From: Bacteroidales bacterium
GTDB lineage: Bacteria > Bacteroidota > Bacteroidia > Bacteroidales > UBA932
Reading direction: 5' to 3'
Length of the DNA: 59,364 nt
Assembly (NCBI GenBank): GCA_024401635.1
Contig: JAKSKP010000004.1
Coordinates: forward strand, 1 to 59,364
The notes beneath the pieces were generated by a model. The model ran no database searches, was not told the origin of the DNA, and saw only the letters and a list, made by a program, of their open reading frames with translations. Shown in pieces: positions 43,372-59,364 of this stretch (within the stretch, counting starts at the first letter, position 1; each line of letters begins with the position of its first letter). Made by a program: the position numbers and the translations under genes.

Positions 43372-43898
43372 AACGTGCCGTTCTGATTTTTGTTGTGATG
43401 CTGGGCGCCGCCTTGTGGCCCGCCTTCGGCCAGATACGCTCCGCTCAGGATTCCCTTGCCACTGCGGTACGGGACAGCCTTCGATACGAAGGCAGCATAC
43501 GTCTGGATTCCACATTGCTGCACAAGGATATTTTCGAAATAATGCCTTCGCGCGGCAGAGGAGATGCCGCAGACGTTAAGGTGAATCAGAGCGATGAGGT
43601 GAGATCGACGATGAGGGATAGGATTGCGTCCTCATCTTTCCGCAAGCTGCAGGGCTACCGCGTCAGGATATACTTCTCCAATGCGCAGAATGCCAGGGAG
43701 GCCTCTCTTGCCGCCGTACAGCTTTTCAAGGAGCACCATCCCGGGCACAATGTGTACCGCAGCTTCATCAGCCCCAATTTCAAGGTCACCGTAGGCGATT
43801 TCCGCAGCCGCAGCGAGGCCCTCGTGCTCCTGAATGCTGTAAAATCGGATTTTCCGGCCGCGTTCATAGTAAGAGAGGATATAATATACAATTATTGA
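43368..43898 (+). CDS. SPOR-domain protein
   Basis: 176 residues. A signal peptide (ends PAFGQ) leads to a short linker and a C-terminal domain from about residue 95 (GYRVRIYFSNAQNAREAS to FIVREDIIY), with the repeat-like VGDFRSRSEA typical of SPOR domains. SPOR domains bind glycan strands stripped of stem peptides, usually at the division septum. It overlaps the preceding gene by 4 bases and the rpoN start by 1 base (TGATG), so it is translated in step with sigma-54. Confidence 0.8.
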   Translation: MKRAVLIFVVMLGAALWPAFGQIRSAQDSLATAVRDSLRYEGSIRLDSTLLHKDIFEIMPSRGRGDAADVKVNQSDEVRSTMRDRIASSSFRKLQGYRVRIYFSNAQNAREASLAAVQLFKEHHPGHNVYRSFISPNFKVTVGDFRSRSEALVLLNAVKSDFPAAFIVREDIIYNY

Positions 43899-45316
43899 TG
43901 TCAATAAAACTGGCACAGGAACAGAAACTGCTGCAGCGCTTGTCACCGCAGCAGATTCAGACCATCAAACTCATTGAACTTCCGATTCAGGATCTGGAGC
44001 AGCGCATCCGGAAGGAATTGGAGGAGAATCCTGTGCTTGACGAGGACAGTACGGCAGACCAGACCGATGAGGAGAACGAGCCCAGGCAGCTGTCTCTCTC
44101 CGAATACAAGGAAGACGATTCCATACCTTCATACAGGCTCTATGTCAACAACCAGGGGAGGGACGAGAGACCTCAGTACAACACATTCAGCGTGAAGGAG
44201 AGTTTCTCCCAGTCCCTTATGGAGCAGCTGGGATACCGCAATCTGAGCGAGCATGAATATGCAGTGGCGGCATTCATAATCGGTTCTCTTGATGACGACG
44301 GATATCTTCGCAGGGATCTGGAGTCTGTGGTTGACGATATGGACTTCCGCGCCAACATCAGGTCGGACAGCGAAGAAGTGCTGAAGATGCTCAAGGTGAT
44401 ACAGGAGTTCGAACCCACGGGCGTCGGTGCGAGAGACTTGAGGGAATGCCTGCTCCTGCAGTTGCGCGGGATGAAGGACTGCAAGGAAGTCAGGAATGCA
44501 ATCCGCATAGTGGACGGATACTTCCGGGATTTCAGTGCCAAGCACTTTACCAGGATAATGCAGAGACTGGACCTCACGCCGGAAGAAATGAAGGCCGCGA
44601 TGGAAAGGATAGTGAAACTCAACCCCTCGCCCGGCGGTCAGATTGATGATTCCTACACTGACCAGGCACAGCAGGTTGTGCCGGATTTCCTCCTGGAGAT
44701 GGACGGCGGCGAGCCCAGGCTTTCAATGCCCCGCTTCAACATTCCGGAACTGAGGATAAACAGGAAGTATGCGGAAATACTGACGGAGGCCTCAGGCAGC
44801 AACGAGAAGGAGAAGAAGGAGGCGGCCGCTTTCGTCAAGCAGAAACTTGACTCGGCAAAATGGTTTGTAGAGGCCATCAAGCAGAGGCACAATACCCTTA
44901 TGAGCACTATGCAGGCCATAGTGGACTACCAGCGCGATTTCTTCACGGAAGGAGATGACAGCTGTCTCAAGCCTATGGTGCTGAAGGATATAGCCGCCGT
45001 GACGGGTTTCGATATATCGACCGTATCAAGGGTTGTCAACTCCAAATACGTGGAGACCTGGTTCGGAATATATCCTCTGAAATATTTCTTCAGCGAAGGC
45101 CTTGAAAATGCCGAAGGAGACCAGATCAGCACCCGTGAGCTCAAGAAGGCGCTGCAGGATGCCATCGATGCCGAAGACAAGAGCAACCCGCTGACGGATG
45201 ACCAGCTGGTCGATTATATGGCTTCGAAGGGGTACAGACTGGCACGCAGGACCGTGGCAAAATACCGTGACCAGTTGAACATTCCCAAGGCCCGTCTGCG
45301 CAAGGAACTGATCTGA
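43898..45316 (+). CDS. rpoN: RNA polymerase sigma-54 factor
   Basis: 472 residues. Region I is the Gln-rich activator-contact segment LAQEQKLLQRLSPQQIQTIKL; the core-binding region and helix-turn-helix follow, and the C-terminal RpoN box reads ARRTVAKYR, with one conservative change possible in its first residue. It directs transcription from -24/-12 promoters and needs an enhancer-binding ATPase, none of which is encoded in the window. The ATG at 43898 overlaps the SPOR stop by 1 base; a TTG one codon earlier is less likely. Confidence 0.96.
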   Translation: MSIKLAQEQKLLQRLSPQQIQTIKLIELPIQDLEQRIRKELEENPVLDEDSTADQTDEENEPRQLSLSEYKEDDSIPSYRLYVNNQGRDERPQYNTFSVKESFSQSLMEQLGYRNLSEHEYAVAAFIIGSLDDDGYLRRDLESVVDDMDFRANIRSDSEEVLKMLKVIQEFEPTGVGARDLRECLLLQLRGMKDCKEVRNAIRIVDGYFRDFSAKHFTRIMQRLDLTPEEMKAAMERIVKLNPSPGGQIDDSYTDQAQQVVPDFLLEMDGGEPRLSMPRFNIPELRINRKYAEILTEASGSNEKEKKEAAAFVKQKLDSAKWFVEAIKQRHNTLMSTMQAIVDYQRDFFTEGDDSCLKPMVLKDIAAVTGFDISTVSRVVNSKYVETWFGIYPLKYFFSEGLENAEGDQISTRELKKALQDAIDAEDKSNPLTDDQLVDYMASKGYRLARRTVAKYRDQLNIPKARLRKELI

Positions 45317-50359: not shown

Positions 50360-50472
50360 CAAAAAAAGACGTGCCGTTGGCCTTGTGGGACAAATTGTTA
50401 AAAAATACAACAAATGATGATAAATAGTGAAATTTCCGTGTTCAAAACAGAGGGATTTTCGTTAAAAATGCA

Positions 50473-50480
50473 TACATTTG
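50473..50480 (+). promoter_or_regulatory. Promoter -7 element for the surface-protein operon
   Basis: TACATTTG, matching TAnnTTTG, 38 bases before the TTG start at 50519. This appears to be the only promoter for the run of genes to at least 59288, since later gaps are under 40 bases. Confidence 0.55.
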
Positions 50481-50518
50481 CAAACTTATAGTTAAAAAAC
50501 AAGTGAGATATTGATAAT

Positions 50519-52348
50519 TTGAGCCCGGCAGGAGGTAATATCGTAAAAAGGTTGGCGTCATTGTTCTGCTTTGTTGCAGCGATTTGTGGCGTCATTTCCT
50601 GCAACGTGGGCAGTTACAGCCCGGATATTGCCACTGGCAATGGCCCCGTCACTTTGGGCTTCGGCATTGCCGGCGGCTCATCGACGAAAACGTCGGTGAA
50701 TGACGACGGAAAGAGCGTATCCTGGTCCGATGGAGACAAGGTAAGGCTGTGGGCGGTCAATTCCTCCGGTGCTACGGTGATAGACGCTCATCCCTTCACG
50801 ATGCTCGGAAGTTTCGGCAACGAGGCGATATTTACTGCCCAGTTCGCCAATCCTATGCCGGAGGATACCTATACGTATTATGCCTGTTATCCCGCCCCGC
50901 TGTCATCCGACGGCGACATTCTGAAATTCTCCCTGCCTGCCAATCAGGATGGAAAGGCATCCGGGGGTGCGGACATAATGATTTCGGGTCCGGTCACGCA
51001 CGGTGCTCTGAAGCCATTGGGGAAGGATTCATCCTCGGACTTCCGAATGTCTCTGAAGCATATGGTGCATATCCTGAAGTTCTATCTTCCGGAAGGCTCC
51101 AACGGATTGAAGGGCGAGGGGGTAAGGAAGATCAAGGTGGAAATGGATGAAAACGTGGTCGGTACAATGTCGGTAGACCGTACCGATCCGTCAAAGACGC
51201 CATCCTTGACCGATGGCGGTTCGACCATTGTCCTCAGTATGGATGAGCCGCTTACGCCTTCGTACGGCGGTACGCGCAATTATGCCTCCGCCTCAATATG
51301 TCCCACACCCTTTGACGACGGTGCAAGGATGAAAGTGACGCTTTATTCCGACAGCTGGATAGGGACTGTCGCACCGTTCAACGTTGCGGGACGCGATTTC
51401 AAGGCAGGCCACACCACATCGGTCCGTCTGAATGTGCTTACGGTTGATCCGTACTATACGCTCAATTTCAGATTTTCAGGGAACAACCTTGGAGAGAATA
51501 TTCAGAAAATCACCTTTACTGTTGATGACAACTCTCTGCACCTGGGTGACGACGGTGCTTCAAGCTATACCTTCAGTCCCGGCAGGGACATCGCAATTGG
51601 GGAGACTGTCACCTTCTCCTATACCGATGTCAACGCGTATCTGACTCTCAGTGGCCATAAGGTGACTATGACCTATGAATCCGAGCACGTACGCAGCACC
51701 GAATCGTTGACATTGCCGAATCTCGAATCGTTCAGAAGCTATACTTACGGTATGACGGTACCTTACCTCCTGTTCGAGGACTTCTCTACGGTTGGCTCTT
51801 TCAGTTCTTACGACGGATATAGTTCAGGGTTTAATTCAGGAGACAAGGATCCTATCTCTTTCCTCAACGGTTGGACAGGTGCCCGTATCGGAGGACAGAC
51901 AGGCACGTCCATCAGAATAGCCCCCAGGCGCGAAACTTCCGCCCGCTATCATTCCCGTGTCGACTCGGCACCTCTTAACGGTTCTATAATCAAGTCCGTA
52001 AATGTTAAGGTCACTTTTGATTATGGTATGGCCGAACAGCACGGTGGAATTGGCAGTAAGCAGTATCCTATGCTCTTCTGGGTAGGTTACGTACGCAAGG
52101 CACAGGGTTATAGCGGTAATTCAACAACGGGAACGTTCGGAGATGAAAACGTCATCAACGAGACCGACGGCTCCTGGACTTATCTCCCCAACAGAATGAA
52201 TGTTGAGATGCAGTTGCCTGCGGTGGATTCAGACAATCCTGTGAATCGTATTTCCATAAGGGCGGAGGTAGAAAACCACGCCGGAGCGAACAACAATACA
52301 AACTGGCTCTACATAGACAACGTGAAGGTCGTCGTTGCGCCGAAATAA
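50519..52348 (+). CDS. Fimbrillin-like lipoprotein with C-terminal beta-sandwich
   Basis: 609 residues counted from a TTG at 50519. A lipoprotein signal KRLASLFCFVAAICGVISC is clear. The next ~280 residues resemble fimbrillin-like proteins: TKTSVNDDGKSVSWSDGDKV, then TYTYYACYPA and a conserved-looking FRMSLKHMVHILKFYL. A middle Ig-like stretch (about 315-410) and a jelly-roll C-terminus (about 420-609, beginning LLFEDFSTVGSF) follow. Fimbrillins are surface-fibre subunits or adhesin tips; a role here is inference. The start is odd: a strong AGGAGGT at 50530-50536 is followed by no ATG or GTG at normal spacing, only ATC at 50540 in frame. TTG at 50519 is the conservative choice. Confidence 0.75.
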   Translation: MSPAGGNIVKRLASLFCFVAAICGVISCNVGSYSPDIATGNGPVTLGFGIAGGSSTKTSVNDDGKSVSWSDGDKVRLWAVNSSGATVIDAHPFTMLGSFGNEAIFTAQFANPMPEDTYTYYACYPAPLSSDGDILKFSLPANQDGKASGGADIMISGPVTHGALKPLGKDSSSDFRMSLKHMVHILKFYLPEGSNGLKGEGVRKIKVEMDENVVGTMSVDRTDPSKTPSLTDGGSTIVLSMDEPLTPSYGGTRNYASASICPTPFDDGARMKVTLYSDSWIGTVAPFNVAGRDFKAGHTTSVRLNVLTVDPYYTLNFRFSGNNLGENIQKITFTVDDNSLHLGDDGASSYTFSPGRDIAIGETVTFSYTDVNAYLTLSGHKVTMTYESEHVRSTESLTLPNLESFRSYTYGMTVPYLLFEDFSTVGSFSSYDGYSSGFNSGDKDPISFLNGWTGARIGGQTGTSIRIAPRRETSARYHSRVDSAPLNGSIIKSVNVKVTFDYGMAEQHGGIGSKQYPMLFWVGYVRKAQGYSGNSTTGTFGDENVINETDGSWTYLPNRMNVEMQLPAVDSDNPVNRISIRAEVENHAGANNNTNWLYIDNVKVVVAPK

Positions 52349-52375
52349 AAACGATAAATATTAACATTGGATATT

Positions 52376-53101
52376 ATGAAAAAGAAACTGCTAATCACTC
52401 TGGCCTGTATTCTGGCCATTGCCTCCTGCAGCAAGGAAAGAGGCTCGGGGAGCATAGAGTTTGCCATCGCGAGCGACATTTCCGTGGAAGATGTCGTCAA
52501 GAGCAAGGTGTCCGAATACGCCACTCTGCCTGGTGGAGGCGATTTTACAATCGTGATCAAGGACGCCGGCCAGGAGAAAATCTGGGAAGGTAAAGTAAAA
52601 GATTGGGTTCCTGCCACCAAACTGACTATGGGAACCTACACCGTAGCGGCAAGTTATGGTGACGTCACCCAGGAAGGTGCCGGCAAACCCTGCTACAAAG
52701 GGAACACGAATTTCTCTGTTGAAGGCGCTGCCACCACCACCGTCAAGATTCCCGTGGAGTTGGAAAACTGCCTGGTGAAAGTGGTCTGCACCGACAATTT
52801 CAAGAAATATTTCACTGAAGGCAAGTTCACGCTAACCACCGGCAACGGAAACTCCTTTGACATAACCAAGGATTCCGATACGGCACTTTTCATCGAAGCC
52901 TACAAATTTACCATCGCGGGCAATTTCAAGAATCAGGGAGGCATTGACAAAACTTTCAGCAATGAATATCAGGACCTCAGTCCGGCCACGCTCTATACGG
53001 TCAAGTATGACATCAGCAATGTCGGAGGGCTCAAGGTAACCGTCACGTTCAATGATACGGTTGCCGAATTCGACCTTGGTGAAGTGGAAATCAACAACTA
53101 A
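52376..53101 (+). CDS. DUF4493-like lipoprotein
   Basis: 241 residues. Lipobox AIASC, then two beta-rich repeats: the first half includes YATLPGGGDFTIVIKDAG and LTMGTYTVAASYGD, the second TVKIPVELENCLVKV and LSPATLYTVKYDISN. This resembles the DUF4493 family of Bacteroidota lipoproteins. Function unknown; the predicted fold suggests a surface or periplasmic beta-sandwich. The ATG at 52376 is used; a TTG three codons earlier is not needed. It is the second gene of the operon, 27 bases after the first. Confidence 0.8.
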   Translation: MKKKLLITLACILAIASCSKERGSGSIEFAIASDISVEDVVKSKVSEYATLPGGGDFTIVIKDAGQEKIWEGKVKDWVPATKLTMGTYTVAASYGDVTQEGAGKPCYKGNTNFSVEGAATTTVKIPVELENCLVKVVCTDNFKKYFTEGKFTLTTGNGNSFDITKDSDTALFIEAYKFTIAGNFKNQGGIDKTFSNEYQDLSPATLYTVKYDISNVGGLKVTVTFNDTVAEFDLGEVEINN

Positions 53102-53113
53102 ACGCCATTGATT

Positions 53114-54364
53114 ATGAAAAAGAACATCATACTCTCACTTGCGGCGCTGATTGCGCTTGCATCCTGCAGCCAGAGGCAGGAAATCTCCAAGGCCGGTATG
53201 CCCGGAACGCTGTCCTTCGCCGGATGCAATCTCGGCGTGGACGAGGCCGTTGAGACAAAGTCCGTGATGCCAGCCGGCGGAAACTACACCATAATAATCA
53301 ATGACAAGAGCGGAGAGACCGAGCCTGTCGTCACGAACTACGCAGCAATAAAGGACAACGACAACAAGATTTCCCTTCCCGAAGGAAAATACACCGTAAT
53401 CGCCCGTTCCGAGGGGGACGTTCCTGCGGCCGCATTCGAACAACCGGTATATGGTGCACAGAAGGATGTGACCATAGTTTCCGGGGAGACCACGGAGATA
53501 GGCGAGCTGATCTGCAAGCTGCTTCAGGTCAAGGTTACCGTCGATTACAGTGAGGAGTTCCTCGCAATGGTGACCGGCGACTGCTCAACTACAGTATCCG
53601 TTTCTCCCACGGACCATCTTGATTATATTATGAGTTATCTGGCTGGGAGTGTGACCTATGACCACAGTGCCGGATATTTTGCTGTGAACAATGGCAACAA
53701 CACTACAATGGAAATTGTCTTCAAGGGTTCTGTCAATGGCAACAGCGGCACCCAGAACATCACTATCGCCAACATAAAGCCCTGCACCTGGCATCAGATC
53801 AAATTCGTCAAGAAGGCGTCTGAAGACGGAAGCGCCGATTTCAGCATCGTAATCGAGGACCTCGTTGAGGATATGGAACTGGGCAGCGATATCCTGGCTG
53901 CTGAAACCGTTATCGGTGACGATCCCGATGCTCCCAAGGGAGACGGCGGCATCAAGCTCGAGAGCACCTGCTCTTATGACATCAACCAGCCCATAGTTGT
54001 TCCCGCTAACGGAAATCCTTTCGTATTGACCATGAAGGCTGTCATACCCAACGGCGTGCTCAAGTTCTCCGTTGACGTAACTTCAGACAACCCGGATTTC
54101 GTAGGTTCAGTCAAGATGATCAACGACGGTTCGGCAACCCTCGACCTCGTGAATCCTTCTTCCGGAGCGATAGAGGTGTTCACAACGATACTTCCTTTCC
54201 CTTATGGCGGGGATGTGGCAGGAAAGACTGAAATCGATTTCAACCTCTCAGACGCACAGACGCCAATCAACGGCTTCAGGGGATCACATACGTTCGTGAT
54301 GAACGTGATGGACAAGACCGGATGCAAGAAGTCTATTCCCATTACCATGGTTGTACCCGAATAA
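53114..54364 (+). CDS. DUF4493-like lipoprotein with added C-terminal domain
   Basis: 416 residues. Lipobox ALASC. The first ~265 residues parallel the preceding protein: MPAGGNYTIIINDKSGET, LPEGKYTVIARSEGD, then VTIVSGETTEIGELICKLLQVKVTVDYSEEF, so the two are paralogues. About 120-150 further residues form a second beta-domain with KLESTCSYDINQPIVVP. Function unknown. The ATG at 53114 begins the signal peptide, 12 bases after the previous stop. Confidence 0.8.
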   Translation: MKKNIILSLAALIALASCSQRQEISKAGMPGTLSFAGCNLGVDEAVETKSVMPAGGNYTIIINDKSGETEPVVTNYAAIKDNDNKISLPEGKYTVIARSEGDVPAAAFEQPVYGAQKDVTIVSGETTEIGELICKLLQVKVTVDYSEEFLAMVTGDCSTTVSVSPTDHLDYIMSYLAGSVTYDHSAGYFAVNNGNNTTMEIVFKGSVNGNSGTQNITIANIKPCTWHQIKFVKKASEDGSADFSIVIEDLVEDMELGSDILAAETVIGDDPDAPKGDGGIKLESTCSYDINQPIVVPANGNPFVLTMKAVIPNGVLKFSVDVTSDNPDFVGSVKMINDGSATLDLVNPSSGAIEVFTTILPFPYGGDVAGKTEIDFNLSDAQTPINGFRGSHTFVMNVMDKTGCKKSIPITMVVPE

Positions 54365-54382
54365 GCAATGGAGGAACAGATT

Positions 54383-56188
54383 ATGAAAAAGAAAATAACA
54401 ATACTGGCAACAGTTGCAATTGCGGCAATTGCCGTTTCCTGCGCAAAGACGGAAACGCAGGAAAACAGAGGTGAAGGAGCCTTGACGCTAGCAGTGGATA
54501 TCGACCGGACAAAGAGCGCCCTGTCACCGGAGGACCTGCTTGCGACAGCCAACGTCAAGATATACAAGGGCGATTTCACCGGTATGGTACGCAATTACAA
54601 ATATGCCCAGGCCCCGGAGGTCATCTATCTCCCCGCCGATTCATACAGGGTGGACGTGGAGGCAGGTGAACTTGCAAATGAAACACCTGCACCCGCATCC
54701 TGGGAGCAGAAGAGCTACAAGGGTTCTGCGAAGTTCAACATCACTGCAGGTACGACACAGTCAGTCCAGGTGGCGGCAAACATAGTGAATGCAATAACCA
54801 AAGTCACCTTCGACCAGTCCATTGCCGACAGTTTCAGGGACGGCTACAGCTTCACGATAGGAGTGAATGAGAGTGATGCTTCAAAACAGTTGGTCTACAC
54901 CGCCCAGAAGAGCGGAAGCGAAGGATACTTCCTTCTTCCCGACATCGACCCCGAGCTGTACTGGTCATTCAGCGGCATTCTCGACAAGGACGGCAGCACG
55001 GTGACGAATTCAGGCAAGTTCACCGACATCGAGAAGGGCAAGCTCTACAAACTTACCCCAAAGTATACGGTCAAGGAAGGAGACCTGGGCTTCGAACTCT
55101 TCGTTGACCGTGATGTCGAGATTTTCAGCGATATCGTTATCTTCGATCCCGTATCAACAGGCCTTCTGAAGAGCAACGCGATGGAAATATGGGCCGGACA
55201 CGCCACTGTCCACGCCAATGTTGACGAGGGCGAATACAATGATCCTTCCAAGATTAAGTTCTCCTTCTCTAAGGATGGTTCGGTATGGACTACCGTAGAG
55301 TCTACAAGAGTTGCGGAAGGTTCTTATGACGGAGTCCTGACCGGGCTTCAGGGCAGCACCGAATACACCTACAAGCTCGTCATCGACGGAGTGGAGATAG
55401 GTGCTCCTATGAAAATCACCACCGATGTGGCAACACAATTGCCCAACTACGGTTATGAAGTCACCAGCAACTGTGAAAGCAGCAAATACATAAGTTTCTA
55501 TGATTCATCATCTTCAAACCCTCTGACCAAGACCAAGTTCTGGGACAGCGGAAGTTCCGCTTCAACTTCCGTAGGTGCCGGCGGAGCAATATGCTATTCA
55601 AGTACAGACGTTCCTTCCGGCATAGGTTCTACGAAATCGGCCCTGCTCCAATCCAAGTACGTCGTAATCAAGTTCGCTGCAGGAAACCTGTTCACAGGTG
55701 AATTTGCAGGTCTTGTAGGCACCAGTGGTGGCAAGGTTAATTTCGGGCGCCCCTTCACCGGTCGTCCTACGGGAGTACGTTTCTGGTACAAGTACATCAG
55801 CGGCAAGATTGATTACGAGCAGAGCGGTGCTCCCGCCAAGAAAGGTGACTGGGACCAGTGCAATGTCAAGGTGGCCCTGGGCACCTGGAGCGGCAAGAAA
55901 TATGGCGGAAGCACTTCGTGTCCCATACAGGTGAACACTACTGACAAGTCCACGTTCTGGGATTACCCCGCTCTTCCTGAGACCATAGCCTACAAGGAAT
56001 TCGCGAAGCCCGCAAACGAGGCTGCCACGGAATGGACCCAGGTCACACTCCAGCTTGACTACATCAATCTGACAACTACGCCTACCTTCATCGTCGTATC
56101 CTGTGCCGCAAGCCGCTACGGTGACTACTTCACCGGTTACAGTGACAGCCAGTTCTATATCGACGAATTCGAACTTCTTTACGAATAG
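54383..56188 (+). CDS. DUF4493-PCMD lipoprotein
   Basis: About 601 residues. Lipobox IAVSC; a DUF4493-like region (about 10-235) with YLPADSYRVDVEAG and FNITAGTTQSVQV; a fibronectin-III-like domain (about 255-350) with LTGLQGSTEYTYKLVIDG; and a C-terminal PCMD domain (about 355-600) with KFWDSG, FAAGNLFTGEFAG, FGRPFTGRPTG and QVNTTDKSTFWD. PCMD is a beta-sandwich common in Bacteroidota surface lipoproteins, often near glycan loci. Start: ATG at 54383 follows a GGAGGA 7 bases upstream and opens the signal peptide; another ATG at 54368 in frame is less likely. Shares its C-terminus with the protein at 57681. Confidence 0.85.
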   Translation: MKKKITILATVAIAAIAVSCAKTETQENRGEGALTLAVDIDRTKSALSPEDLLATANVKIYKGDFTGMVRNYKYAQAPEVIYLPADSYRVDVEAGELANETPAPASWEQKSYKGSAKFNITAGTTQSVQVAANIVNAITKVTFDQSIADSFRDGYSFTIGVNESDASKQLVYTAQKSGSEGYFLLPDIDPELYWSFSGILDKDGSTVTNSGKFTDIEKGKLYKLTPKYTVKEGDLGFELFVDRDVEIFSDIVIFDPVSTGLLKSNAMEIWAGHATVHANVDEGEYNDPSKIKFSFSKDGSVWTTVESTRVAEGSYDGVLTGLQGSTEYTYKLVIDGVEIGAPMKITTDVATQLPNYGYEVTSNCESSKYISFYDSSSSNPLTKTKFWDSGSSASTSVGAGGAICYSSTDVPSGIGSTKSALLQSKYVVIKFAAGNLFTGEFAGLVGTSGGKVNFGRPFTGRPTGVRFWYKYISGKIDYEQSGAPAKKGDWDQCNVKVALGTWSGKKYGGSTSCPIQVNTTDKSTFWDYPALPETIAYKEFAKPANEAATEWTQVTLQLDYINLTTTPTFIVVSCAASRYGDYFTGYSDSQFYIDEFELLYE

Positions 56189-56193
56189 GTTTT

Positions 56194-56934
56194 ATGCGTA
56201 AGTTGACCTCGCTGATTCTTATCCTGTTCTGCCTCGGCTGTATTGACGCCAGGGCGGACAGGAAGGACCGTGGGGTAGCCTCGCTGACATCGGAAAACCC
56301 CCATCTTGCCAAAGGGGAGATGATGATTGGCGGCAACGTCGCCTATTCGATGCATAACAATGATACATACAGGGTTCTGATAATCGAAAACGTGAGTTCC
56401 CAGGGCTACAATGTTTCCGCAAAGCCGTTTTTCCTCTATGCGCTCACTGACGATCTCGCCGTAGGCGTGTCCGGTCTGTACAAGCGCGGTCTCACCGACC
56501 TCAAGAGCGCAGGAGTATCGCTGATGGGCACGGAACTCAAGCTGGAGGACTTCTATTCCATAAGCAACAAGTGGGGTGCTGGGGTCTTCGGACGCAAATA
56601 CCTTGTTCTGGGCCATTCAGGCAGGTTCGCCCTGTTCGTGGACGTGGAGCTTAACTTCAGCTGCTCGCAGTCTAAGATATCCAGCAGGCAGAACAACCAG
56701 ATCATAGGCACCTACCAGACGGACTGGTGGATAGGCCTGGGCGTCAATCCCGGGATATCATTCTATATCACCGACAATTTCGCCCTCCAGGCGGGTGTGG
56801 GGATACTCAACTTCGGAGTGGGCAGGATCAATCAGGTTCACAATCAGGTCGCCCGTGGCTCCGCATCAGGATTCAGGGCTTCCTATGCCGTGGACCTGCT
56901 GGCAATGAACATCGGTGTGGCATTCAGGTTCTGA
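56194..56934 (+). CDS. Predicted outer-membrane beta-barrel protein 1
   Basis: 246 residues with a signal peptide ending near DARADR. The rest alternates polar and hydrophobic residues in strands of about ten, with aromatic girdles, and ends in AFRF, the terminal aromatic typical of barrels assembled by BamA. The strand pattern suggests roughly eight to ten strands, but exact topology cannot be read by eye. No family name recognised. It follows the PCMD gene by 5 bases and overlaps the next barrel gene by 1 base. Confidence 0.75.
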   Translation: MRKLTSLILILFCLGCIDARADRKDRGVASLTSENPHLAKGEMMIGGNVAYSMHNNDTYRVLIIENVSSQGYNVSAKPFFLYALTDDLAVGVSGLYKRGLTDLKSAGVSLMGTELKLEDFYSISNKWGAGVFGRKYLVLGHSGRFALFVDVELNFSCSQSKISSRQNNQIIGTYQTDWWIGLGVNPGISFYITDNFALQAGVGILNFGVGRINQVHNQVARGSASGFRASYAVDLLAMNIGVAFRF

Positions 56935-57680
56935 TGATGACAAGGCAATCCTTCATATCACTGCTTGCATGTGCCGCGCTGTTCGCTTGCACGGTGACGG
57001 AACTGTCCGCCCGCGATACTGCGTCGCAGGAACGCTTCGAACGTCGGACTGTTCTCTACCGCGGGGAGAAGACGGTAGGCGCTTCCATAATGAGTGCCAA
57101 TGTTACCAGTGCCAACAGCGAGGCTCTTCTGGTGGTGGGCGATCTGGACGTGACGGGAAAATTCTTCCGCATCGCTCCAAGCTTTGAATGTGCCTACAGG
57201 GACAATGCCAGTATGGGAATACGTTTGTCTTATCTCAGGGCGGCCCTGGACCTTTCATCTGTGGACCTGTCTCTGTTCAGCAGCGATTTGAGTTTCTCGC
57301 TCGACGACGCTGTCGGGACGCTGAACTCCTTCAAGGCCGTGGTTTTCCATCGTAACTACATAGGTTTGTCCAAGAAGGGCTCGGTGGGACTTTTCCTGGA
57401 GGAGGGCCTTTCATATACGCATGCGACCACCGACCTCGGAACGGGGGATTCCGCCACCAGGGACGTGCGCCAGCGCTTTATGCTGTCTCTGTCCCCGGGC
57501 GTAATCCTCTATATACTTCCATTCGTCTCCATCGACGCGTCCATAGGCATAGCCGATCTTGCTTTCGTGACATCGTCTGCCTCGAAGAACGGTCAGACGG
57601 ACGGCTCGCGCTGGCAGTTCAAGGCCGGTTTCAAGCTCGACGTGCTGAACCTCAACTTCGGCATACATTACCATTTTTAG
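56934..57680 (+). CDS. Predicted outer-membrane beta-barrel protein 2
   Basis: 248 residues. Signal peptide to about LSARDTAS, then barrel-like alternating strands ending HYHF. It is like the preceding protein in size and C-terminus, with the block SLSPGVILYILPFVSIDASIGIADL matching the other protein's PGISFYITDNFALQAGVGI, so they are paralogues. The ATG at 56934 overlaps the previous stop (TGATG; a second ATG follows directly). A longer frame upstream to 56727 lies inside the first barrel gene and is not used. Stop and next start are adjacent. Confidence 0.75.
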   Translation: MMTRQSFISLLACAALFACTVTELSARDTASQERFERRTVLYRGEKTVGASIMSANVTSANSEALLVVGDLDVTGKFFRIAPSFECAYRDNASMGIRLSYLRAALDLSSVDLSLFSSDLSFSLDDAVGTLNSFKAVVFHRNYIGLSKKGSVGLFLEEGLSYTHATTDLGTGDSATRDVRQRFMLSLSPGVILYILPFVSIDASIGIADLAFVTSSASKNGQTDGSRWQFKAGFKLDVLNLNFGIHYHF

Positions 57681-59288
57681 ATGAAGAAGGTCCTTTCATA
57701 TATTCTGGCGCCGATTGCGGCTTTCATCTCCGTCACGTCCTGTGTGGAGAATGACCTGCCGTATCCTGTCGTGGTTCCTGTAATCGAGAAGATTGAGGTG
57801 GATGGGGCACTGAGCGTGAATATCGACCAGATGAACTGCGTGGTAAACGTCGAACTTACCGAGCAGGCCGACATCAGGCGCGTGAACGTAAGGTCCATCA
57901 CCTTCAAGGACAGCCTTACCACTATGTCACCTTCCATCACGGGAGAGCAGGACTTGAGCTCCAGAAAACATTTCGTACTGCATACCTATGCGGATTACCA
58001 CTGGAATATGGTCGGCGAACAGAAAATAGAAAGATATTTCAACGTATCCGGACAGGTAGGGGAGGCTGTGATAGATGACGTCAACAGGAGGGTAATCGCA
58101 TATGTGACGAAAAAGACAGACCTGAAGAAAATAAAGGTTCTGAGCGTCAAGCTCGGCGCCGAAGGTGTTTCTGAATATTCTGAAGACCTTATGCAGAGGA
58201 CGGATTTCAGTGATATGGTGGAGCTGTATGTGACTACTCACGGCATCAGGGAGGCCTGGCACATTTTCATTGAGAGGAAGGATGTTCAGATGGAATTCAA
58301 GACGCTTGTGCCCTGGACCAGAGTGGTCTGGATGGCAGCTGACGGCGTTGCGGGGGAGAATAACGGCTTCTGCTACAGGGAGGCGGGCACGGAATGGTGG
58401 AGTGAGGTTCCGCAGTCCTTGATAGTTCAGGAAGGCGGCTCGTTCACCTGCTGTCTTGACGGCCTCGATCCGGAAACGGAATATGAGTGCTATGCGTACA
58501 GCGGCAGTCTGCAGTCAGATGTGCGCAGCTTTGTCACCGAGGCCGAGCTGCAGCTGCCCAATGCAGGGTTTGAAGTCTATTCCAATGCCGAGTCCCCCAA
58601 TTTCAAGTCCTGGTATGATCCTTCCGGCACTTATGCCTCCGAAAAATGGTGGGATTCCGGTAATGTGGGCTCCACGGCGGTGGGCGCGTCCGGTGTCATA
58701 TGCTCTCCGGACAACGAGACTTTTACACAGGGAGCGACCTCAGCGCGTCTCAATTCCCGCTATGTAGTGGTCAAGTTTGCTGCCGGCAACCTTTTCAGCG
58801 GCGAATTCGCCGGGCTTGTGGGCACCAGCGGCGGCAAGGTCAACTTCGGAAGGCCTTTCACACTGCGCCCCAGAAAGCTCACGCTGATGCTCAAATATGA
58901 TTGCGGAAAGATAGACAATGTGGGTGAATATCCTGCAGGCGATCCCGTTGCCAAGGGTGACCCGGACCGCTGCCAGGTGTTCGTCGCTCTGGGCGACTGG
59001 GACTACAAGAAATACGGCGGTTCGAAGGAGTGCCCCGTTCAGGTGAACACCACGCAGAAGGAAACCCTATTCAATCCCAAGTCAGAGGCTGTCATCGCCT
59101 ACGGCTCCTATGTCTCATCCGAGACTGTGCCGGAATGGACAAAAATAGAGATTCCTCTGGAATACAACGCCGTGGACAGGAAGCCCACACATATAATAGT
59201 GTCCTGCGCAGCCAGTATGCTTGGCGATTACTTTACAGGCTCATCTTCAAGCGTCCTCTGGCTGGACGATATGATATTGGAATATTAG
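57681..59288 (+). CDS. PCMD-domain lipoprotein
   Basis: 535 residues. Lipobox SVTSC; N-terminal beta-domains (about 20-215) with DIRRVNVRSITFKDSL and VNRRVIAYVTKKTDLKKI, a fibronectin-III-like part (about 215-295), and a C-terminal PCMD domain (about 295-535) with KWWDSGN, FAAGNLFSGEFAG, FGRPFTLRPRK, QVFVALGDW and QVNTTQKETLF. The N-terminal part resembles domains of PCMD lipoproteins that fold as tandem Ig-like modules. Function unknown. The operon may continue past it, since a new frame opens 19 bases later. Confidence 0.85.
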   Translation: MKKVLSYILAPIAAFISVTSCVENDLPYPVVVPVIEKIEVDGALSVNIDQMNCVVNVELTEQADIRRVNVRSITFKDSLTTMSPSITGEQDLSSRKHFVLHTYADYHWNMVGEQKIERYFNVSGQVGEAVIDDVNRRVIAYVTKKTDLKKIKVLSVKLGAEGVSEYSEDLMQRTDFSDMVELYVTTHGIREAWHIFIERKDVQMEFKTLVPWTRVVWMAADGVAGENNGFCYREAGTEWWSEVPQSLIVQEGGSFTCCLDGLDPETEYECYAYSGSLQSDVRSFVTEAELQLPNAGFEVYSNAESPNFKSWYDPSGTYASEKWWDSGNVGSTAVGASGVICSPDNETFTQGATSARLNSRYVVVKFAAGNLFSGEFAGLVGTSGGKVNFGRPFTLRPRKLTLMLKYDCGKIDNVGEYPAGDPVAKGDPDRCQVFVALGDWDYKKYGGSKECPVQVNTTQKETLFNPKSEAVIAYGSYVSSETVPEWTKIEIPLEYNAVDRKPTHIIVSCAASMLGDYFTGSSSSVLWLDDMILEY

Positions 59289-59307
59289 AAACAGCGCTTA
59301 TAATGTA

Positions 59308-59364
59308 ATGGCCGAGAAAACCCAGAAGTCTTCAGCTTCTGTGGATGAATCGGCCAGGCGTATC
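59308..59364 (+). CDS. Start of a further open reading frame (partial)
   Basis: ATG at 59308 opens a frame of 19 codons to the window edge (begins MAEKTQKSSASVDE), 19 bases after the PCMD gene's stop on the same strand. No stop is seen. It has no signal peptide, so it would be cytoplasmic. Too short to identify. Confidence 0.4.
   Translation, partial: MAEKTQKSSASVDESARRI

Follow-up and report, generated by a model that had tools for sequence, protein, structure and literature searches.

The window analyzed here, an entire contig of 59,364 bases from a draft Bacteroidales genome (G000; 1.43 Mb, 84.9% complete), carries near its right end an operon of seven genes (g1–g7, 50519–59288; Table 1) that represents a cassette conserved in Bacteroidales. 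The products are, in order, a fimbrillin-like protein with a C-terminal domain that we call g1C, a protein with a DUF4493 domain only, a DUF4493 protein with an immunoglobulin-like (Ig) domain, a DUF4493-PCMD protein, two small barrels, and an Ig-PCMD protein. Together they probably build a sticky surface complex of pilus-like proteins held by small outer-membrane barrels, a role that is predicted.

Recurrence of the cassette and its modules

Gene maps were prepared for 43 stretches, the window and 42 other loci, with gene strings written for those containing at least three such genes, and several patterns emerge. First, the order described above, which we refer to as type A, is present in 13 copies including the window, plus a further locus (L036) that is truncated where its contig ends; two of the copies, L032 and L033, are nearly identical, and the g7 gene of L034 is truncated in the same way. 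The gaps within cassette copies are mostly shorter than 30 bases, mis-called starts excepted, and the recurrence of gene order is far beyond chance. An earlier prediction, made from the window alone, that the genes form one operon is borne out by their common strand, their short gaps, and the comparison of gene order across Bacteroidales that it called for, which finds the same seven-gene order in 12 other loci. Secondly, in the 15 type B loci a long DUF4493-PCMD' protein takes the place of the first two genes and there are one or two barrels; 14 of these have no DUF4493-only gene, and L044 has an additional one. Thirdly, there are four further variants: L072 begins with two DUF4493-only genes, L092 and L093 share the order of L044, and L094 has one DUF4493-only gene first and two extra DUF4493 genes beyond the Ig-PCMD gene. 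In these assignments no account was taken of a weak barrel match on the opposite strand, 2.75 kb away from the L069 cassette. The constant core consists of DUF4493-Ig, DUF4493-PCMD, one or two barrels, and the Ig-PCMD lipoprotein.

The cassette is present in nine Bacteroidales family codes, counting that of G317 (f1, f3, f21, f25, f57, f58, f84, f99 and f103). The g7 protein was matched in 26 of 61 genomes, some through the PCMD domain alone; the four named relatives are all metagenome-assembled Bacteroidales, one of them labelled goat omasum. A class-wide sample yielded a cassette protein in 6 of 346 genomes, these being G000 and five others from its order. In L032 (11889–16570) and in L033 the cassette is followed downstream by genes of ∼1060–1107 and 494 amino acids which, from their size and N-termini, may encode SusC and SusD.

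Among 148 genomes of the order, DUF4493 was matched in 17 and PCMD in 67. Full-length Ig-PCMD matches (<1e-170) occur in 11 of the 148 and barrel matches (<1e-76) in the same 11, with the best candidates per genome scored against profiles to which those genomes themselves contributed sequences. The profiles were built from 30 g3-type proteins and 5 of 28 DUF4493-only proteins (A1), 51 of 53 barrels, the two omitted belonging to the near-duplicate pair L032/L033 (A2), and 29 of 32 Ig-PCMD proteins, from which the near-duplicate L033, the short L051, and L034, cut by its contig end, were excluded (A3). Next in barrel score is G124 (3.4e-34), whose barrel lies beside a PCMD gene, and in three genomes outside the profiles a barrel also lies beside an Ig-PCMD gene, two of the three belonging to the family of G135, itself inside the profiles. 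In G165 (L075, L087/L090) a DUF4493 trio lies inside a 206 kb contig and a barrel-barrel-Ig-PCMD set inside a 220 kb contig, and the G013 locus holds only a barrel, an Ig-PCMD protein, and an Ig-like lipoprotein, DUF4493 elsewhere in that genome not having been searched for. From the split in G165, the G013 locus, and the co-occurrence, we conclude that the barrels and Ig-PCMD constitute one module and the DUF4493 genes another. The latter also occurs alone, with 6 of the 17 DUF4493 genomes falling outside the 11. Such minimal and split natural cassettes suggest module boundaries that are open to direct testing.

DUF4493 genes are also found in other settings. L078 (G155; cut by a contig end) and L079 (G124) are three-gene DUF4493 clusters with no barrel in view, and were not counted as cassettes. 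Solitary DUF4493 genes occur in genomes that lack any strong match to the barrel or to Ig-PCMD: the one in L084 (6666–7943) encodes ∼420 amino acids with a Lamin Tail Domain after DUF4493 (only L084 was scanned), and those in L080, L081, L082 and L083 are of similar size. G000 itself encodes another DUF4493 protein apart from the operon (L085, 7422–8504, on contig C9).

Domains, predicted folds and N-terminal motifs

The original prediction of a fimbrillin-like g1, three DUF4493 lipoproteins, one with PCMD, and a second PCMD lipoprotein agrees with Pfam matches that are all above cut-off: Mfa_like_1 in g1 (36.1 bits, cut-off 27), DUF4493 in g2, g3 and g4 (125, 121.7 and 121.4 bits, cut-off 27), and PCMD (PF13201) in g4 and g7 (117.4 and 120.2 bits, cut-off 28). 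An NCBIfam scan of the operon gave nothing above cut-off. A lipobox can be read by eye in all five non-barrel proteins. Gene 5 scores below cut-off for two Pfam barrel families and g6 matches none, and both match a single barrel profile built here, in keeping with their description as paralogous small barrels; modelling gives an OmpA-type barrel for g5. The absence of an enzyme or SusC/SusD pair is likewise upheld, as Pfam finds neither among the seven genes (the contig stops 76 bases past g7), and the operon is not a polysaccharide utilization locus. Nor is there a recognized Mfa/Fim-type anchor: PF08842, the Mfa2/FimB family, is matched by none of the seven proteins (E≤1) and by nothing in the draft genome (E≤0.001).

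The PCMD domains of g4 and g7 match Protein Data Bank (PDB) sequences 3hbz, 4het and 4jrl, and that of g7 also matches 3s30 (E values down to 4.1e-27). We do not adopt a hydrolase reading of PCMD; these entries are named 'putative' or 'hypothetical'. The N-terminal region of g7 resembles the levan surface glycan-binding protein (SGBP) with an E value of 4.3e-9, a weak homology whose best stretch has an i-Evalue of 0.00046.

The structure model of g3 (predicted local distance difference test score 83.6) matches type V fimbrillins in fold across its DUF4493 part, with middling Z scores, and the prediction for DUF4493 is therefore a two-domain fold like that of type V pilins. The tentative assignment of a pilin fold is thus made by Pfam for g1 and by predicted fold for the g3 DUF4493, with no profile link between them: profile A1 finds no fimbrillin among PDB sequences at E≤1, and candidate sequence links between DUF4493 and fimbrillin, or between g1C and PCMD, were rejected, all 21 domain pairs scoring ≤2.4% in hhalign. 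We suggest that DUF4493 is an unrecognized branch of the type V pilin fold; searches of open-license PMC papers gave no mention of DUF4493 or of the PCMD domain.

Lipoboxes were accepted by pattern in 100 of 107 DUF4493 proteins and 8 of 13 fimbrillin-type proteins, and N-terminal motifs were counted from the lipid-bearing cysteine after dropping proteins without one (7 DUF4493, 5 fimbrillin-type and 3 Ig-PCMD); the remaining sequences are related to one another. The motif T[KR][ASTP] at +12 to +45 is present in 50/100 DUF4493 proteins (background 218/3781 windows, 5.8%) and 6/8 fimbrillin-type proteins (background 2/362), and is not enriched in Ig-PCMD proteins (3/29; background 41/1113). This count replaces two others, a raw profile alignment in which the loop was misaligned (K/R in 20/107) and a count of [KR][ASTG] in the first 19 domain residues (89/107 against 304/833 windows). 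Ig-PCMD proteins have C-x(2,3)-N-D in 29/29, the N and D columns being invariant in the 29 rows of A3. An acidic residue at +2 to +6 is found in 84/100 DUF4493 and 29/29 Ig-PCMD lipoproteins, counts for which a background was not computed.

A candidate surface complex and its alternatives

We propose, with confidence evenly poised, that the cassette specifies a surface adhesion or glycan-binding complex of type V-pilin-like parts, in which pilin-like subunits would assemble on a base of barrel-docked g7. First, g1–g4 and g7 would be exported as lipoproteins to the outer face of the outer membrane. Secondly, g1–g4 would be cut past an N-terminal K/R by a clostripain-type protease, with loss of the lipid and first strand and opening of a groove, by analogy with type V pilins, which according to PMC12632263 are cut near the N-terminus by surface clostripain while the anchor pilin retains its lipid. 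The basis for this step is the enrichment of T[KR][ASTP] together with a C11 protease gene in G000 (E value 4.9e-19). Thirdly, g1, g3 and g4 would display their C-terminal g1C, Ig and Fn3-PCMD regions in the manner of tip pilins and bind glycans or cells; the targets of the PCMD, Ig and g1C domains would probably be glycans. Fourthly, g7, whose kind is not enriched in the cleavage motif, would stay lipidated and dock through its Ig-like N-terminus on the barrels with which it is paired, forming the base. Such docking would resemble that of the N-terminal domain of the levan SGBP, which sits on SusC (PMC7618045) and to which the g7 N-terminus is weakly homologous. Finally, the pilin-like subunits would form a short or tip-only heteromer on this base, with g2 the sole stalk or adaptor candidate; no other pilin-like subunit of the window operon lacks an additional domain at its C-terminus.

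The main rival, which we hold to be a substantial minority possibility, is a non-polymerizing surface glycan-binding complex in which DUF4493 proteins stay lipidated and display PCMD or Ig domains, and the barrels and g7 form a scaffold resembling a SusC-docked SGBP without transport. The deposition of PCMD proteins as putative or hypothetical glycoside hydrolases, the resemblance of g7 to the levan SGBP, and the lack of a stalk candidate in most type B cassettes all fit this arrangement, as do the acidic residues at +2 to +6, K-(D/E)2 and S(D/E)3 being known export signals (PMC6222051). However, a cleavage-type motif that is enriched in the pilin-like subunits, with no such enrichment in g7, is not expected under this arrangement, and the operon has neither SusCD nor an enzyme. 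Compared with the levan SGBP Bt1761 on SusC in the utilisome, g7 has the same lipidated Ig-like N-terminus, further Ig-like domain, C-terminal putative binding domain, and gene-linked barrel, but its partner is a small OmpA-type barrel rather than a TonB-dependent transporter, its C-terminal domain is PCMD rather than DUF4960, and the cassette has no SusD or enzyme. The PCMD chains in the PDB share their PCMD domain with g4 and g7 but are 342–360 residues long with ∼100 residues before PCMD; the pilin or Ig modules of g4 and g7 are longer, and both genes lie within a cassette.

The original prediction had the barrels anchoring or exporting the lipoproteins, or the whole forming a surface glycan-binding complex; anchoring and glycan binding are retained as possible roles, and export is set aside because the g5 barrel, as modelled, is too narrow for protein export. 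A dedicated translocon in which the barrels export or flip lipoproteins would explain the linkage of the two, and is very improbable.

With type V pili (Fim, Mfa and tip pilins) the cassette shares lipoprotein precursors, a predicted pilin fold, a basic motif after the first strand, and tip-like pilins with a C-terminal extra domain, and its mode of action may be that of a group of such tip pilins. Points of difference are OmpA-type barrels and an Ig-PCMD lipoprotein in place of an Mfa2/FimB-type anchor, the absence of a clear stalk, and the lack of a sequence link between DUF4493 and fimbrillin. We do not place it among the type V pili, since no anchor is recognized in the operon and both stalk and polymerization are open. 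That the cassette supplies alternative tips to a conventional type V pilus, with stalk and Mfa2 anchor encoded elsewhere, is unlikely: three subunits of the window operon show tip architecture and an Mfa2-family match is present in 10 of 15 cassette genomes tested, but five have none, including G000 and the cassette-bearing G061 (100% complete), and the barrels are left unexplained; FimA-type stalk families elsewhere in these genomes were not searched for. A tentative and rather doubtful extension of the proposed complex is a class of appendage descended from type V pilins, with an OmpA-type barrel and lipid-anchored Ig-PCMD replacing the Mfa2/FimB anchor, several tip-type pilins assembling in the absence of a stalk, and cassettes exchanged like alleles at one site.

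The targets of gut Bacteroidales fimbriae are an acknowledged open question (PMC12632263), and the cassette presents a defined set of candidate binding domains for them. As proposed, it would also provide another means of anchoring than the established pilus anchor, one based on barrels, and would give DUF4493 and PCMD, both uncharacterized, a testable shared role.

Chromosomal site and gene map

In the window's family, cassettes occupy one neighborhood, with a gyrB/parE-like gene on one side and ArsP_2, DUF1573 and often M16 on the other. Type A is found there in L039 and L040, and by one flank in L077; type B in L043, L048 and L076 by both flanks, in L044 and L047 by one, and nearby in L052; and a minimal form in L051 by one flank. 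Species of a single family thus have three different architectures at this site, as if these were interchangeable alleles. The window cassette adjoins an S9 peptidase gene, not this site. The tree of Ig-PCMD proteins has one inner node at which three groups come together: type A (100/100), the type B copies from the window's own genus along with L051 (100/99), a group that L072 joins, and copies from other families (100/98); one branch (100/97) separates one-barrel from two-barrel copies. These groups show that the window's genus carries two deeply separate lineages. We infer that whole cassettes have been replaced at one chromosomal site; old paralogues with losses are a possible explanation instead.

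Table 1. Features of the operon in the window.
Feature	Position	Strand	Basis
Putative Bacteroides-type −7 box, TAnnTTTG (TACATTTG)	50473..50480	+	Intergenic gap upstream of g1; pattern match
g1, fimbrillin-like (Mfa_like_1) lipoprotein with C-terminal g1C domain, family not recognized	50519..52348	+	Pfam PF13149; lipobox ISC/N; 'STKTS' motif
g2, DUF4493-only lipoprotein, 241 amino acids	52376..53101	+	Pfam PF14900; domain map
g3, DUF4493 (predicted pilin fold) and C-terminal Ig-like domain, lipoprotein	53114..54364	+	Pfam; structure model; fold matches
g4, DUF4493 - Fn3-like - PCMD lipoprotein	54383..56188	+	Pfam; matches 4jrl, 4het, 3hbz
g5, small OmpA-type outer-membrane barrel	56194..56934	+	Barrel profile; structure model
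g6, second small barrel, paralogue of g5	56934..57680	+	Barrel profile E 4e-61; genome search E 2.4e-70
g7, Ig-like domains, Fn3-like, PCMD lipoprotein, starts C-V-E-N-D-L-P-Y-P; putative partner of barrels	57681..59288	+	Pfam; invariant N-D after Cys

The intergenic gaps from g1 to g7 are 27, 12, 18, 5, −1 and 0 bases, as originally listed with the exception of the second, which had been given as 14 and is 12 since the ATG of g3 is at 53114. The start codon of g1 is TTG and is uncertain. A promoter had also been predicted upstream, and there is a match there to TAnnTTTG, which we take to be a Bacteroides-type −7 box; this is weak evidence because two of the three occurrences on the + strand of 50414–59364 are inside genes. 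Scans for sigma-70-like promoters (14 sites, 8.0 expected) and terminator-like sites (7, 8.0 expected) were uninformative. A possible eighth open reading frame (59308–59364) begins 19 bases past g7, is cut by the contig end, and has no match among open reading frames of the compared loci. Elsewhere in the window, the gene at 43895–45313 encodes RpoN (sigma-54) and has the full set of three Pfam domains, with a RadC gene nearby.
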